DNA of 64,000 nt. Source: Thermomicrobium sp. CFH 73360. GTDB taxonomy: Bacteria > Chloroflexota > Chloroflexia > Thermomicrobiales > Thermomicrobiaceae. The stretch lies in assembly GCF_023806465.1 (NCBI RefSeq), contig NZ_JAMSLS010000001.1, positions 434,001 to 498,000 on the forward strand, given 5' to 3'. A program made the translations under genes and the position numbers. Numbering within the stretch: position 1 is the stretch's first letter; each line of letters begins with the position of its first letter. The notes under the pieces are model-generated. The model ran no database searches. It saw only the letters and a program-made list of their open reading frames with translations, and had not been told where the DNA came from. Below, one piece after another: positions 4,639-22,939 of the stretch.

Positions 4639-4890
4639 CTATACACGCTGCTTCTGGAAGTACTCGCGGTTCTTCTGCAGGTAATGTCGCCACTGTTCAG
4701 GGAGGTCGTCCTCGAAGTAAATCGCCTCGACGGGGCAGACTTCAGCACACACTCCGCAGTCGATGCATTCGTCTGGATTAATGAAGTACTGCTCTGCCTC
4801 CGGATCGGACTTGATGCAGTCGACGGGGCACACTTCGACACAGGAGGCATCCTTTACGCCGATGCAGGGCTCTGCGATCACGTATGTCAT
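4639..4890 (-). CDS. 7Fe ferredoxin ([3Fe-4S][4Fe-4S])
   Basis: An 83-residue electron carrier with eight cysteines: C9, C17, C21 and C25 in the first half and C42, C45, C48, C52 in the second (CIDCGVCAEVCP). The C9-x7-C17 spacing is that of seven-iron ferredoxins of the Azotobacter FdI type, where C9, C17 and C52 would hold the 3Fe cluster and C21, C42, C45 and C48 the 4Fe cluster. Such proteins are common in aerobic thermophiles as low-potential cytoplasmic carriers. ATG 4890 is preceded by GGAGGAG; longer frames upstream lack a ribosome site. It appears monocistronic, with a terminator shared with the convergent gene. Redox partners cannot be told from the neighbours. Confidence 0.93.
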   Translation of the reverse strand: MTYVIAEPCIGVKDASCVEVCPVDCIKSDPEAEQYFINPDECIDCGVCAEVCPVEAIYFEDDLPEQWRHYLQKNREYFQKQRV

Positions 4891-15291: not shown

Positions 15292-16509
15292 ATGATGGCC
15301 CACACCACTCCGCAGGCAGCGCTCGAGCAAGCCGCACCACAGCCACGCGAGACACCGTTGGGGTTGTACATCCATATTCCCTTCTGCCGCCGTATCTGCC
15401 CCTATTGTGATTTCAACGTCTATGCACGGCAGGAGCAGCTCGTCCCTGCGTACCTCGCTGCCATACAGCGCGAACTCACTCTCTGGGCCGAACAGGTGGA
15501 CAGACGCCCGCTCCAAACCATTTATCTCGGCGGCGGCACTCCGTCGTTGCTCGAACCGGCTCAGGTCGCCGAACTCCTCGAAACGATCTTCCAAAAGTTC
15601 ATGGTCCTCGACAGGGCGGAGGTGACGCTGGAGGCGAATCCGGAGACGCTCAACGTGGCGAAGCTTGCCGGATACCGCACTGCCGGGGTGAATCGCCTCA
15701 GCATCGGTGTGCAAACGTTGGCCAGGCACGGACTCAAGGTACTCGGACGTGCTCATCGCCCCGAGACACCAGTGGAGGCCTTCCGTGCTGCGCGAGCCGC
15801 CGGATTCGAAAACATCAATCTCGACCTCATCTACGGCTGGCCAGGACAGTTGCGTGAAGACTGGATGCGTGACCTCCGAACCGCTCTCTCTTGGGAACCC
15901 GAACATCTTTCGCTCTATGCACTCACCATTGAGCCGGGTACCCCTTACGAACGCGGAGTCCGCCGCGGCGTGCTCCGTCCACTCGACGATGACACGATGG
16001 CCGAGTTTGCCGAGCTCGCAGCGGAACTCCTTACGGCTCACGGATACGAGCACTACGAGATCTCGAACTGGACACGGTCAGGCAACTGGCGCTCGCGCCA
16101 CAATCAGATCTACTGGCGTAATGGGTACTACGTCGGTGCTGGCGCTGGCGCTCATGGCTATTTCGACGGACGGCGAACAGTCAATGAGCGGCTTCCCGCT
16201 CGGTACATTGAACGCCTGGGGCGCGGTGAACTCCCGGTCGTGCAGACAGAACTCATTGACCAGCGGACAGAAGTCGTCGAGACGATGATTCTTGGGCTTC
16301 GCCTGGTAGTGGATGGCGTCTCGGCGACCGCCTTTCGAGCGCGGCATGGTGCCGACCTGGTGGAGCTCTATGGCCCGGTCCTCGCGGAACTGGCAGCGCT
16401 CGATCTGATTGAGTGGGATGGAGAGCGTCTTCGCTTGACACCGCACGGTGTGTGGGTCGCAAATGAGGTTGCTGTCCGCTTCTTGGATCCGCGTGGTAGA
16501 CTGGGATAA
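15292..16509 (+). CDS. hemW: Radical SAM haem chaperone HemW (HemN-like)
   Basis: A 405-residue radical SAM protein. The 4Fe-4S/SAM motif is YIHIPFCRRICPYCDFN (CxxxCxxC), followed by IYLGGGTPSLLEPAQ, EANPETL, GVNRLSIGVQT and LSLYALTIEPGTPY, the standard HemN/HemW sequence. The cluster motif is followed by aspartate and the HemN-specific N-terminal extension is missing, so the haem chaperone HemW is more likely than oxygen-independent coproporphyrinogen oxidase, although the two cannot be told apart fully by eye. The next gene, parA, begins 24 bases after the stop, and guaB follows, so the three may form one transcript. Confidence 0.88.
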   Translation: MMAHTTPQAALEQAAPQPRETPLGLYIHIPFCRRICPYCDFNVYARQEQLVPAYLAAIQRELTLWAEQVDRRPLQTIYLGGGTPSLLEPAQVAELLETIFQKFMVLDRAEVTLEANPETLNVAKLAGYRTAGVNRLSIGVQTLARHGLKVLGRAHRPETPVEAFRAARAAGFENINLDLIYGWPGQLREDWMRDLRTALSWEPEHLSLYALTIEPGTPYERGVRRGVLRPLDDDTMAEFAELAAELLTAHGYEHYEISNWTRSGNWRSRHNQIYWRNGYYVGAGAGAHGYFDGRRTVNERLPARYIERLGRGELPVVQTELIDQRTEVVETMILGLRLVVDGVSATAFRARHGADLVELYGPVLAELAALDLIEWDGERLRLTPHGVWVANEVAVRFLDPRGRLG

Positions 16510-16533
16510 TTAACACCGACCGCGCAAGCGGGG

Positions 16534-17352
16534 ATGGGCGGCGTGGAGCGAGTGATCGCGGTCGCGAACCAAAAGGGTGGTGTTGGTAAGACTACGACCG
16601 CTGTGCAGCTCGCAGCATTTTTTGCCCACCGTGGTTTTCGCACGTTGCTGGTTGACCTCGATCCACAGGCGAACGCGACGAGCAGTCTGGGCATCGATCG
16701 CGGGCAGCTCGAGACGACCGTGTATGAGGCATTACTGGAGCCGGAGGGTGCCGAGTCAGCCGTCCTTGCTGACGTACGGCCTGGGCTTGATCTTCTACCT
16801 TCGTCTGGGCTCCTCGCCGGTGCCGAGGTGGAGTTGGTCGCGACGCCTCAACGGGAATTCCGCTTGCGAGCAGCTTTGCAACACCTGGCACCACGGTATG
16901 CGGTCGTTTTGGTCGATTGTCCGCCTTCGCTTGGGCTCCTGACAGTCAACGCGCTGGTCGCAGCACGCGCTGTCCTGGTACCGATCCAGTGCGAGTACCT
17001 GCCCTTGGAGGGGCTGGCCCAACTGGTCACAACACTGGACCTTGTGAAGCGGCGGTTGAACCCGCCGCTTGACGTCATCGGTGTGGTACTGACGATGTTC
17101 GATGCGCGGACGCGACTTGCGCTACAGGTCGTCCAGGAAGTTCGGCGTGCATTCGGCGCCCGGGTCTTCCGCGCGATCATTCCGCGCGCTGTTCGGCTGG
17201 CCGAAGCACCGAGTCATGGGCAAACGATTTTCGAGTACGATCCCGCTTCCCGCGCGGCCCGCGCGTACAACGAACTCGGCGCGGAACTGCTCGAGCGACT
17301 GGGGCTCTGCACAGTCCCAGAGCCGATCGAATCCGCCCAAGGAACACCATGA
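16534..17352 (+). CDS. parA: ParA/Soj-family chromosome-partitioning ATPase
   Basis: A 272-residue deviant Walker ATPase. The P-loop is [20 protein letters not shown] (KGGVGKTT with the signature lysine), Walker A' is [16 protein letters not shown], and the Walker B-like strand is [18 protein letters not shown]. These are the marks of ParA/Soj proteins, which bind DNA nonspecifically and drive segregation together with ParB. No parB or parS-like sequence is seen next to it, unusual because the genes are normally adjacent. It could alternatively be a stand-alone MinD/ParA-like protein positioning some other cargo. It sits between hemW and guaB with gaps of 24 and 20 bases. Confidence 0.88.
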
Positions 17353-17366
17353 GAACCAGGGGGTGA

Positions 17367-18908
<1,542 letters not shown>

Positions 18909-18939
18909 CGGCCTCACCGACCATGTCGCATGCTGAGCA

Positions 18940-18965
18940 GGCGGCCGGTCGATCGACCGGCCGCC
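18940..18965. terminator. Bidirectional terminator after guaB
   Basis: A perfect 26-base palindrome with arms GGCGGCCGGTC and GACCGGCCGCC around GATC. It separates guaB from the convergent repeat-protein gene. No long T-run follows. Confidence 0.7.
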
Positions 18966-18972
18966 CCCGATC

Positions 18973-20769
18973 TTAGTTGGCATGAGTCGGGATGTCAGGA
19001 TGGCGGCCGCCGTCCCAGCTTATTCCCCAGAAGTGCCAGCGGAAGACTTCTTCGAGGGAGCGAAGCTCCTGAGTGATCGCCTCGGGGTTGGGTCGCCCCT
19101 GACTGTCGAACCATTGCCGGAGTGGCTGCGGCCCAGAGACACTCGTGGCATGAGTGGGGAACTCAGGATGCGGCTGCCCGTCCCACGAAACGCCATAGAG
19201 GTGCCAACGGAACCCCTCCACCAGTGTACGGAGAGTCCGCGAGACGGTATCCGCCTTTAGGCGACCATCAGGCGTAAACCATGGGCTCTCGTTGGGATTG
19301 CTCGACACGACGAAACCCCAGCTCATCGTGAGCGTCCGACCAGCCGTGTCGCGAGCGGTCGCGGTCACGCCATACAGCCCCGGCTCAAGCTGACGCGTGG
19401 TAAAGACGAACCAACTCCGCGCATCGTCCTGCGAGATCTCGACGTTCAGGAGTTGGCCGTTCAAGCGGAGCTCGACGCTCGCCAGCGGCTGGTCAGTCGA
19501 GCGCGCTTCGACCGCGATCATAACGGGATCCGTGGGTGGCAGCGTCATGAAATGCATCGGGGAGCGCGTGACAAATCGGATCGTCGAAGCAACCGTCCCA
19601 TGGGTCGGCATCTCCGGATGGTAGGCGCCATCCCAGGAGATACCAAAGAAGTGCCAGCGAAATGCTTCGCTGAGCGCGCGCAGCGACTGCTCAATTTGCA
19701 CCCGGCGCGGCGTCCCGTCGGCCGTAAACCACCATCCGTCACGCGCGTTCGCAGAGACAACGAACTGCCATTGGGCCGTAAAGGAACGGCCGTGAATATC
19801 GGTTGCCGTCGCACGAACGGTAAAAAAGCCGGGCTGCAAGGTCTGCTGCACACTCACAATCTTTGTCCTGTCATCGCCAGTGACCGTCGGGGAGAGCTCA
19901 TTGTTGTTGAGCCAGAGGCGTACGAAGCGCAGACCGACGTCACTCGTGGCGGTCACCGCGATGCGCACGGTACCGGGAGCGACCGTCGCCCAGGGATGGG
20001 GAGTTAACTCCCGGAATGTCGGTCCGGCTGTGACACCACCGCCTCGTGTCGTCACGACACCGGTCGACTCGAAGTTCCAGAAGACAGTGAACGGATCACT
20101 GCGGAAGAGCAGGGCGTCGATGGCACCTTGCCAGCCACCCCAACCGCTCCCGAGACATCCGACCCCCACACCGAGCCCTCCTTGCCCACTCTCTGGCACC
20201 GCCAGCCGAGCTCCAGGGAAGGCCTGCAGATAGCTTGCGAGCGGGCCGGGAGCGCTCGGCAAGAGCCCACCGAGCCCTCGCTGCGACCACCAGCGCCCTC
20301 CGACTGCTTCCCATTCCTGCCAGGTGAGCGGCGTCACCGTGCCGTTCAGCTCCGGCTGGTAGATCAACCGGTCATCGGCAACCCCGTCATCGTTGAGGTC
20401 CACGTCGAGAAACACGTGTGGGGCGACGGCACCGCCACGCGTTACGAACGTCCAATAGCGAATTTCCCTCACTACGGCGAGCGCAGTTCGTGCGACCGTC
20501 GGCTGGACCAATTGCGACCAGATCCGACCCTCGTTCACCACGGCAACAGAGAACTGCAGGCTTCCAGTCCCGTAAGGCGGCGTACCCGGTCCAGGCGCAA
20601 ACTCCTGCTGGGCGAAGCCGCCATTCGTTCCACACGCCTCGACGTAACCGCTCCAGCCGCCCATTGACTCCTGAGCAGCAACCGGGAGAACCGAGAGAAC
20701 TGCTCCAAGGAGTAAGACCGCCACCGCGAGAAGCCGAACGCGCGCCACCAGGTGAGCCGGTTGCCACAT
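18973..20769 (-). CDS. Secreted protein with Ig-like domains and three copies of a 47-residue FRWH module
   Basis: A 598-residue exported protein. Residues 8-33 form a signal peptide (LLAVAVLLLGAVLSVLPVAAQ, cleavage after an A-x-A type site). The next about 230 residues contain many W, G and Y residues and a Ca-like DVDLNDDGVADD stretch. Two Ig/cadherin-like segments follow (ending ATATDIHGRSFTAQWQFVVS and ATARDTAGRTLTMSWGFVVS). Each is followed by a module with the core FRWHxxGxSWDG and ending PTHA/PTHG, and a third module ends the protein: residues about 346-392, 496-542 and 552-598. I know no family name for this module. ATG 20769 is preceded by GGGAAGGG. It is probably a cell-surface or secreted protein; the function is unknown. 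Confidence 0.8.
   Translation of the reverse strand: MWQPAHLVARVRLLAVAVLLLGAVLSVLPVAAQESMGGWSGYVEACGTNGGFAQQEFAPGPGTPPYGTGSLQFSVAVVNEGRIWSQLVQPTVARTALAVVREIRYWTFVTRGGAVAPHVFLDVDLNDDGVADDRLIYQPELNGTVTPLTWQEWEAVGGRWWSQRGLGGLLPSAPGPLASYLQAFPGARLAVPESGQGGLGVGVGCLGSGWGGWQGAIDALLFRSDPFTVFWNFESTGVVTTRGGGVTAGPTFRELTPHPWATVAPGTVRIAVTATSDVGLRFVRLWLNNNELSPTVTGDDRTKIVSVQQTLQPGFFTVRATATDIHGRSFTAQWQFVVSANARDGWWFTADGTPRRVQIEQSLRALSEAFRWHFFGISWDGAYHPEMPTHGTVASTIRFVTRSPMHFMTLPPTDPVMIAVEARSTDQPLASVELRLNGQLLNVEISQDDARSWFVFTTRQLEPGLYGVTATARDTAGRTLTMSWGFVVSSNPNESPWFTPDGRLKADTVSRTLRTLVEGFRWHLYGVSWDGQPHPEFPTHATSVSGPQPLRQWFDSQGRPNPEAITQELRSLEEVFRWHFWGISWDGGRHPDIPTHAN
18976..19734 (-). repeat. Three coding copies of the FRWH/SWDG module
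   Basis: Copies lie at 19594-19734, 19144-19284 and 18976-19116, 141 bases each. Shared pattern: W-F-(T/D)-x-x-G at the start, an amphipathic helix, then FRWH(F/L)(F/Y/W)G(I/V)SWDG, HP(E/D)xPTHA. The first two are separated by an Ig-like segment, the last two by nine residues. Confidence 0.85.
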
Positions 20770-20878
20770 GGTCACCCTTCCCTTCCCGCTCGGATACGAG
20801 CCGAGCACGTCCCGCATCCCCCTCGCTGGGCTCTCTGGAAGCCTAGCGCAGTAGTCAACACATGGCAACAACCCGTCC

Positions 20879-20906
20879 CTTGTCGATATCGCGATATCGT
20901 GATATC
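20879..20906 (+). promoter_or_regulatory. Operator-like triple GATATC repeat in a candidate promoter
   Basis: GATATC occurs at 20885, 20893 and 20901, an exact 8-base step; the first two units make the 16-base palindrome CGATATCGCGATATCG. TTGTCG at 20879 and the last GATATC at 20901 could be -35 and -10 boxes 16 bases apart, so the repeats would lie inside the promoter of the downstream cluster. This is the arrangement of a cooperative repressor site. Confidence 0.45.
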
Positions 20907-20948
20907 CTCAAGATGCTGCCGATACGGCAGGAAAGGAGGAACCAGACC

Positions 20949-21134
20949 ATGCGGACCATCGAACGACTGCTGAGGATCCTGCACCGCGATCGACCACCGA
21001 TCAGTGACCCCGGCTTCGCCGCCTACTACAGCGCCTTGGTTACCGAGGCGGGCAGCGGCGTACCGACCGTTGAGGAAGCGCGCCGTGACTTTGAACCGAT
21101 CCGCCGCCTCATTGAGCGCGCCTTCATCGTCTGA
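20949..21134 (+). CDS. Small protein of unknown function, first gene of a cluster
   Basis: A 61-residue basic-then-acidic protein beginning MRTIERLLRILHRDRPP and containing DPGFAAYYSALVTEAG and PTVEEARRDFEPIRRLIERA. It is predicted to be mostly helical and soluble, with no cysteine. I recognise no family. The ribosome site GAAAGGAGGAA is among the strongest here, which supports translation of this short frame. It heads a run of six plus-strand genes (to 23756) and lies behind the GATATC repeat. Confidence 0.65.
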   Translation: MRTIERLLRILHRDRPPISDPGFAAYYSALVTEAGSGVPTVEEARRDFEPIRRLIERAFIV

Positions 21135-21156
21135 GACTTGCCGTGTAGCCTCTCCG

Positions 21157-21190
21157 TGGTCGATACTGAGCACCAGCGCGGTATCGACCA
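21157..21190 (+). promoter_or_regulatory. Ten-bp inverted repeat before the second gene of the cluster
   Basis: TGGTCGATAC (21157-21166) and GTATCGACCA (21181-21190) pair perfectly across 14 bases, just before the GGGAGG ribosome site at 21192. It could be an operator, a weak terminator or a translation-controlling hairpin. Confidence 0.5.
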
Positions 21191-21202
21191 GGGGAGGCAC
21201 CC

Positions 21203-21394
21203 ATGACCTATCTGGACCGCGACCGTCTCGTCGAATCTCTCCTCCGCGATCTCGACCGCGAGCTGGAACGGTATCCTGCTCTCCGCGCATTCGCCGAACG
21301 GGTTGCTGACACGATCCTTGCGACGCTTGCAGAGCACGAGCGGCGGCTCCACATGGTGACGCCAGAATTCGGTGAAGAGGAACGGAACGGATGA
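21203..21394 (+). CDS. Small acidic helical protein of unknown function
   Basis: A 63-residue protein (MTYLDRDRLVESLLRDLDRE at the start, AEHERRLHMVTPEFGEEE near the end) that should form two or three helices. No motif or family recognised. GGGAGG precedes the ATG, and its stop overlaps the start of the LLM oxidoreductase as ATGA (21391-21394), so the two are translationally coupled and probably work together or share expression needs. Confidence 0.65.
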   Translation: MTYLDRDRLVESLLRDLDRELERYPALRAFAERVADTILATLAEHERRLHMVTPEFGEEERNG

Positions 21395-22290
21395 GCGAGC
21401 AGTCTGCTGCCCCGGCGAACAGCTCTCCGCCCGTGCGTTTCGGCATCGGGACCGGTAACCGCCGCCCCTTCCCCGAACTCTTGGCCCAGTGGCGCTGGAT
21501 CGAAGAACTCGGCTTCGACACCGCCTGGGTCGTTGATCACTTTCTGGCGGCCGACAATGAGGACACCCCGTACTTTGAGGCCTGGACACTGATCGCCACG
21601 CTCGGTGTCCAGACCCAGCGCCTCCGCTTCGGCGTCCTGGTGAGTGGGAACACCTACCGGAACCCCGGCGTGCTGGCCAAAATGGCGGTCACGCTCGACC
21701 ATGCCTCAGGCGGACGGGTCGAACTCGGCATCGGTGCTGGTTGGTGGGAGCGCGAACACCGTGCCTATTCGTTCCCCTTCCCAAGCGTCGCTGACCGGAT
21801 CGCTATGTTGGAGGAAGCGATCCAGATCATCGATCGACTGCAGCGCGAGCGACGCGTCACCTTCCACGGTCGCTTCTACCGCTTCGAGGACGCACCATTC
21901 GAGCCGAAGCCGCTCCAACAGCCTCGCATCCCGCTGATCGTCGGTGCCTTCAAGCCGCGTATGCTTCGGCTCGCCGCACACTACGCCGACATCTGGAACA
22001 CGCGTGGTGAACCGGACGAGGTCGGCGAACTCGCTCGCTTCGTCCGCCAGGCAGCGCGTGAGTTCGGGCGAGATCCAGCGACACTCCGCTGTTCGGTCTT
22101 CACGTGGCGACCGCCGTTTGAGAGTGTGGAACGTTTTCGCTCGCTCGCGATCGCCTATCTCCAACACGGCTTCACCGATCTCGTTTTCCCAATGCCGCCG
22201 GAAGCACAGTGGCCGGTACTTGAGCGCTGTGCACGGGAAGTGATTCCCGAATTGCGACACCGCGCGGCACGGGGTGAGTTCAGTGTCTGA
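21391..22290 (+). CDS. LLM-class (luciferase-like, F420-dependent type) oxidoreductase
   Basis: A 299-residue TIM-barrel flavin/F420 enzyme. It opens with VRFGIGTGNRRPFPELLAQW and continues with EELGFDTAWVVDHF, LRFGVLVSGNTYRNP, KMAVTLDHASGGRVELGIGAGW (the LLM signature) and the QRERRVTFHGRFYRFEDA segment after IQIIDRL. These are the family marks; whether the cofactor is F420 or FMN, and the substrate, cannot be read from the sequence. It overlaps the preceding 63-residue gene by four bases and is followed after 46 bases by a thioredoxin-like gene. Confidence 0.88.
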   Translation: MSEQSAAPANSSPPVRFGIGTGNRRPFPELLAQWRWIEELGFDTAWVVDHFLAADNEDTPYFEAWTLIATLGVQTQRLRFGVLVSGNTYRNPGVLAKMAVTLDHASGGRVELGIGAGWWEREHRAYSFPFPSVADRIAMLEEAIQIIDRLQRERRVTFHGRFYRFEDAPFEPKPLQQPRIPLIVGAFKPRMLRLAAHYADIWNTRGEPDEVGELARFVRQAAREFGRDPATLRCSVFTWRPPFESVERFRSLAIAYLQHGFTDLVFPMPPEAQWPVLERCAREVIPELRHRAARGEFSV

Positions 22291-22336
22291 GACGCTGCCG
22301 GTGTAGGATGAGTCCAGCGGAAAGGGGGTGGGCTCA

Positions 22337-22939
22337 ATGAGCCTTGCAGCCGAACGCTGGGAGCAGGCAATGACGCCTGACGAGTATATCGCCTCGATGC
22401 AGCAGTATCGCGCGGAGTTCGAACGGAACATCACCCGGACGCGTATCATGCCGGGTGACTGGGCAGCGTTCGGACAGGAACCGTTGCACATTCTCATCAT
22501 GACCGAGGACTGGTGCCCGGATTCGGTCCAGTTCGTCCCGATGGTAATTGCGCTCGCCCAGCGTGTGCCAACGGTTGAGGTGCGCCTTGTGCGACGAAGT
22601 GAGCATCAAGACCTCGCCGCACACTATCGGCGGCCAGATGGCACACAGGCTATTCCGACCTTTGTCTTGCTAGACGCAGACTTCCAAGAGCTGGGCGTGC
22701 TCATCGAGCGACCGGAACGCGCTGCTGCGGAGTTGCGCGCGGCGCTCACCGAGTTCGCCCGTACGCACCCAGAACTCGAAGGAGTGGAACGCCCATGGGC
22801 AGAGATGCCACCGGAGACACGTCTGGCCGTTCGGGCGTTCCTGAACGAGTGGCGTGAACAGCAGTTCGACCGCTGGACACGCTACCTGTTTGAGGATCTG
22901 GCCGAGATCGCCAAAACAGCACGAGTCCGCGCGGCTTGA
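22337..22939 (+). CDS. Thioredoxin-like protein with CPDS active site
   Basis: A 200-residue protein. The thioredoxin fold starts at about residue 50 with LHILIMTEDWCPDSVQFVP, in which the second redox Cys is Ser (C-P-D-S), and has the cis-Pro segment TQAIPTFVLLDADF. The first 45 residues are helical (MTPDEYIASMQQYRAEFE) and the last 60 are helical too. A CxxS site allows a monothiol mechanism such as glutathione- or mixed-disulphide exchange but not ordinary CxxC reduction. ATG 22337 is chosen for AAGGGGGTG upstream. This arrangement is known from uncharacterised thioredoxin family proteins. Confidence 0.8.
   Translation: MSLAAERWEQAMTPDEYIASMQQYRAEFERNITRTRIMPGDWAAFGQEPLHILIMTEDWCPDSVQFVPMVIALAQRVPTVEVRLVRRSEHQDLAAHYRRPDGTQAIPTFVLLDADFQELGVLIERPERAAAELRAALTEFARTHPELEGVERPWAEMPPETRLAVRAFLNEWREQQFDRWTRYLFEDLAEIAKTARVRAA

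Follow-up and report, generated by a model that had tools for sequence, protein, structure and literature searches.

The window analyzed here, a stretch of 64,000 nucleotides from Thermomicrobium sp. CFH 73360, contains a minus-strand gene (18973..20769, ATG start) for an exported protein of 598 residues that carries three copies of a module without a named match in the databases searched. An earlier note on this DNA took a single 47-residue module as the unit; instead, three modules of unequal type together make up the unit, a triad. Three unequal terminal repeats placed on varied heads are also described features of the SLH and CWB2 cell wall anchors, and this likeness makes a non-covalent envelope anchor the most likely role of the triad. 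Judging from the analysis as a whole, the anchor is probably restricted to this lineage, and its ligand would be a polymer in the unusual envelope of the Thermomicrobia.

The window protein starts with a signal-peptide-like N-terminus (aa 1 to 33; 20671..20769, minus strand like all features given here), whose cut site was read by eye. Next is an unnamed domain (aa 38 to 240; 20050..20658), which has no Pfam match and is beta-rich, as judged from the strands in the structure model. An Ig-like domain of the Big_7 type (about aa 248 to 340; 19750..20028) then precedes the first module copy, M1 (aa 346 to 390; 19600..19734), and a second Ig-like domain, of the Big_13 type (about aa 395 to 490; 19300..19587), separates M1 from a tandem of M2 (aa 496 to 540; 19150..19284) and M3 (aa 552 to 596; 18982..19116). 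The stop follows two residues after M3. Self-comparison and copy profiles support all three copies, and a tree of the copies places M3 and assigns M2 to an M1-like type. The Ig-like domains are seen in the model and exceed the Pfam curated cut-offs, with 34 bits versus 24.1 for Big_7 (PF17957) and 30.3 versus 27 for Big_13 (PF19077). Big_7 and Big_13 thus identify the spacers; the module overlaps neither of them, and the models show it as helical. The earlier note had described the copies as interleaved with Ig-like domains, which holds for copies 1 and 2, with one Ig domain between them, but not for copies 2 and 3, which are in tandem. Likewise, the PTHA end ascribed to every copy does not extend to copy 1, which ends in PTHG.

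The beta-rich N-terminal domain (20050-20658) has no relative in the plasmid collection, and it is common to the Sphaerobacter carriers L044 and L050. The neighborhood of the gene (15292-22939) is ordinary: a HemN-like radical SAM protein, a ParA-like ATPase, and IMP dehydrogenase are encoded on its stop side, and a luciferase-like monooxygenase and a thioredoxin on the other, all on the opposite strand.

Multiple lines of evidence establish the repeat. The three 45-residue cores align without gaps, with 24, 26, and 22 of 45 positions identical between pairs. The best 45-column self-match is 26 in the real protein but 15 when the window protein is shuffled 300 times, which rules out chance repetition. 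In addition, a profile made from any two copies recovers the third (E 2e-23 to 8e-21). The earlier claim of a three-copy repeat in an exported protein is thus confirmed. When the codons of the shared residues are compared (M and W excluded), they are identical in only 6/21, 12/23, and 7/19 cases. These differences exclude a recent DNA duplication within the gene and indicate that the repeats are old and have been kept by selection on the protein. Related genomes supply 75 distinct copies, in all of which L24, H31, and W37 (alignment columns) are kept; F28, W30, P47, and H49 are present in 74 copies, R29, D38, and G10 in 73, and H42 in 69. The motifs of the module are, in order, F-R-W-H at the end of its helix, a G-x-S/T-W-D-G turn, and a P-T-H end.

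The statement in the earlier note that the module was not recognizable as a described domain has withstood a database search. Thirty-five copies searched against Pfam and NCBIfam gave no credible named match, the best stray having an E value of 0.0053 for one copy. Searches with the triad in PHROGs yielded nothing better than E 0.0093, PDB sequences contained no credible match to the module, and a literature search by title and abstract start found no paper that describes it. Stray matches, such as those to TraF, CIS_tube, and FD15, involve one copy, are short, or cover just the helix, and identity with a named domain was rejected.

Structure prediction, which the earlier note had suggested for one copy, gives a confident AlphaFold2 model for the Ig domain plus triad of L055, a protease carrier (pLDDT 90.1, pTM 0.85). 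Each module in this model has one helix of about 20 residues. The model of the full window protein has a pLDDT of 81.9 and a pTM of 0.58; its pLDDT is low where M2 and M3 end. Fold searches with the Ig-containing models matched the Ig parts only, and the Ig domain filled the lists.

The window's genome encodes a second carrier, also exported, with three tandem C-terminal copies (contig position 728,252-728,737); the genome holds six copies in all. This second protein looks like a protease of the trypsin type that also contains an Ig domain, and its orthologue L055 matches both Trypsin and Trypsin_2 in Pfam. When repeat views of the same proteins or genomes are left out, 27 carrier ORFs can be compared. 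Exactly three copies are present in 26 of them, and in 26 the last copy lies 0 to 2 residues from the C-terminus. The copy-to-copy period is 55 to 57 residues, or 149 to 150 where an Ig domain sits between M1 and M2. Positive genomes have only one to three carriers each, and in 13 of the 14 the number of copies is 3, 6, or 9. The carrier with two modules is L054 (ORF at 4753), whose last module resembles M2 in its first part and M3 in its second, as would be left by a deletion between repeats.

The partner domains of the triad are unrelated to each other: Trypsin/Trypsin_2, Amidase_3, Big_7/Big_13 arrays, and the unnamed beta-rich domain. L052 (5521-7149) is the sole positional exception, with an internal triad in the order Ig, M1-M2-M3, and then Amidase_3 (E 2.4e-37). 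It is also the only carrier with a wall hydrolase, an N-acetylmuramoyl-L-alanine amidase, and comes from a draft genome that is 51% complete. Export, terminal triads, unrelated partners, and one wall amidase together support the earlier idea of a compact ligand- or wall-binding module, in which the binding is what we infer from the architecture.

The position of a copy within the triad is reflected in its sequence. On a tree of 80 copies, which has few columns and many open forks, M1, M2, and M3 separate with 3 label changes, compared with a mean of 37.7 for shuffled labels. In window-type carriers, M2 groups beside M1. By its sequence, this M2 looks as if an Ig-M1 unit had been put in place of the ordinary M2, with the count still three.

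The triad also evolves differently from the rest of the protein. When L055 is compared with other protease carriers, identity is 58-94% in the triad, 38-79% in the catalytic part, and 26-86% in the Ig domain, and the triad is the most conserved part in all eight comparisons. In window-type carriers the modules are mostly, but not always, the most conserved parts; between the window protein and L039, for example, M3 (71%) is below the N-terminal domain (76%) and the second Ig domain (77%). Two adjacent paralogous proteases in genome G009 (locus L087:1558-5407, on G009:C2) have triads identical at 474 of 486 nucleotides and upstream parts only 52% identical in amino acids, indicating that the triad has been homogenized or exchanged between the proteases.

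In the genomes searched, the module occurs in a narrow group of bacteria. It is present in 14 of the 21 genomes of the window's family. At the level of the order, 16 of 61 genomes have matches, two of which (G428 and G429) are weak and distrusted; the match in G429 is a short resemblance within an ORF of a different type, and we attribute it to chance. Within the class, 15 of 158 genomes are positive. The one outside the family, G498, has its match at contig positions identical to those of L052, which is from a Chloroflexi draft genome under a sediment-bin record that belongs to another family of the class and lies outside the order list. A draw of 400 genomes from the phylum gave 8 positives, all in the window's family, in a search that scored 17 candidates per genome and may have missed diverged relatives. 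The same holds for a scan of 84,980 species genomes, which used a single peptide pattern around LVEAFRWH. Named carrier records come from Thermomicrobium, Thermalbibacter, Sphaerobacter, other Thermomicrobiaceae, and the hot-spring bins HR27 and HR28. The seven family genomes that lack the module include all five of one genus, two of these 98% complete, and thus the module is dispensable within the group. No relative was found in the plasmid, phage, or viral_contigs collections, where 14 pattern matches in viral_contigs were not confirmed, and a phage or plasmid origin was therefore discarded.

The closest parallels to the triad are SLH and CWB2. Both are described as three tandem unequal motifs at a protein terminus that form trimers with a three-helix core; their repeats are needed together and are not interchangeable, and their conserved arginines are thought to meet anionic wall polymers (PMC6081394, PMC4973711). 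CWB2 copies are reported to be N- or C-terminal, with varied heads that include proteases and wall enzymes (PMC4973711), and LysBT1 is described as an amidase with an SLH domain (PMC12285257). Like SLH (PF00395), the module occurs as units of about 55 residues, in three unequal tandem terminal copies of exported proteins, with conserved W, G, and R, except that an Ig domain lies between copies 1 and 2 in window-type carriers. The SLH trimer has a parallel three-helix core; the L055 model gives each module one helix, which may or may not pack in this way. As in CWB2 (PF04122), the three copies are unequal and position-specific, with the positions here clustering on the tree.

These likenesses do not extend to the sequence itself. 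SLH is found in none of the 35 copies in Pfam at E values up to 1. With hhalign, the module compared with SLH has a probability of 0.04%, versus 99.6-99.7% for the M1-M2 and M1-M3 controls. The SLH profile was made from 23 motifs of one genome, two of 25 SLH loci (L101 and L103) being dropped because they lie near a contig end; with this profile, a distant kinship with SLH is unsupported. The 35 copies likewise have no CWB2 match in Pfam, and their motifs are instead FRWH, SWDG, and PTH. By sequence the module is neither SLH nor CWB2; the triad is best seen as a candidate triplicate anchor that is built from a distinct module and resembles both in the features readable from sequence. One Chloroflexota genome, G132, has 26 SLH matches, although of 151 genomes sampled from the phylum just 2 have any. 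In the window's family, SLH occurs in 1 of 21 genomes. SLH has a pyruvylated wall polymer as its ligand, and PF04230, the family of the pyruvyl transferase CsaB, occurs in 2 of 21, with none in the window's genome at E 1e-10.

A covalent route to the surface is probably also represented in this group. Sortases are found in 20 of the 21 family genomes, with two to seven matches each, which indicates that sortase display is probably present in these bacteria; the lineage has few described surface proteins. The carriers differ from the LPXTG substrates of sortases, as none of 23 carrier ORFs contains an LPxT[GA] motif.

How the triad would act can be outlined as follows. The carrier would be exported by way of its signal peptide, with the Ig domains probably serving as spacers. 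The three module helices may fold together, in a packing that could be three-fold, and the three unequal modules would act as one binding unit, an idea derived from the exact copy number, the constant spacing, and the existence of positional types. This unit would bind a wall polymer, for which the R, W, H, and D residues, almost without variation, are a likely contact or metal site, and the variable head, whether protease, beta-rich domain, or amidase, would thereby be kept at the cell surface. The envelopes in question are unusual: the wall of T. roseum is described as having little peptidoglycan, as dominated by protein, and as bearing a regular structured outermost layer (PMC2615216), while S. 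thermophilus is reported to have a protein-rich wall and a peptidoglycan with ornithine and beta-alanine (PMC3035262). A closed triad is harder to picture in the window protein, where an Ig domain lies between the first two modules and the lower pTM marks a less certain model. The wider reading as an anchor has against it that there is a single carrier with a wall hydrolase, that 7 of 21 genomes do without the module, that positive genomes have so few carriers, that one carrier has two modules, and that the edge in conservation is not uniform.

Other functions must be weighed against anchoring to a wall polymer. Docking between proteins, in which the triad would attach its carriers to an S-layer-like protein lattice of the wall rather than to a glycan, is improbable. 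The protein-rich walls of T. roseum and S. thermophilus and the regular outermost layer reported for T. roseum (PMC2615216, PMC3035262) speak for it, as does the abundance of tryptophan in the module; the L055 triad, for example, has 8 W in 162 residues. However, we found neither a lattice protein nor a cohesin-like partner, and the sole amidase partner targets peptidoglycan.

Recognition of a substrate, in which the triad would bind the polysaccharide or protein substrate of the attached enzyme like a carbohydrate-binding module, is a similarly doubtful proposition. Ig-like spacers are common in secreted hydrolases, the triad adjoins catalytic domains, and its Trp residues are conserved. However, the same triad is joined to S1 proteases, an amidase, and non-enzymatic beta-rich heads; it evolves more slowly than these heads and has been exchanged between proteases. 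This mixed chemistry, together with the slower evolution and the exchange, is easier to reconcile with a common location than with a common substrate. A purely structural module, in which a metal is held by H31, D38, H42, and H49 and the only role of the triad is to stabilize the protein against heat, is very unlikely: the four residues are highly conserved and most named carriers come from the known thermophiles Thermomicrobium, Thermalbibacter, and Sphaerobacter, but the positional types, the terminal placement, and the homogenization would go unexplained, and the record that contains L052 takes its name from a sediment bin.

Thus, the non-covalent envelope anchor is the preferred reading, and it bears on how Thermomicrobium and Sphaerobacter retain proteins in their atypical envelopes, a matter that the genome papers, in the portions drawn on here, leave unexplained (PMC2615216, PMC3035262). 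According to one paper, Gram-positive bacteria have no known modules for S-layer anchoring other than SLH and CWB2 (PMC6081394). If the triad binds as proposed, it would be a further triplicate anchor beside them and could supply a heat-stable surface-display tag for the laboratory. With about 160 residues and a clear motif, it would also offer a direct handle on its ligand in isolated walls. A bolder version, to which we give slightly less than an even chance, is that the triad represents a third family of triplicate wall anchors, unrelated or very distantly related to SLH and CWB2, which was born in the Thermomicrobia and is directed at a wall polymer particular to their atypical envelope. 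If this is true, unequal helix-bearing triplets would have been invented three times independently, suggesting that non-covalent wall anchors follow a general rule of design.
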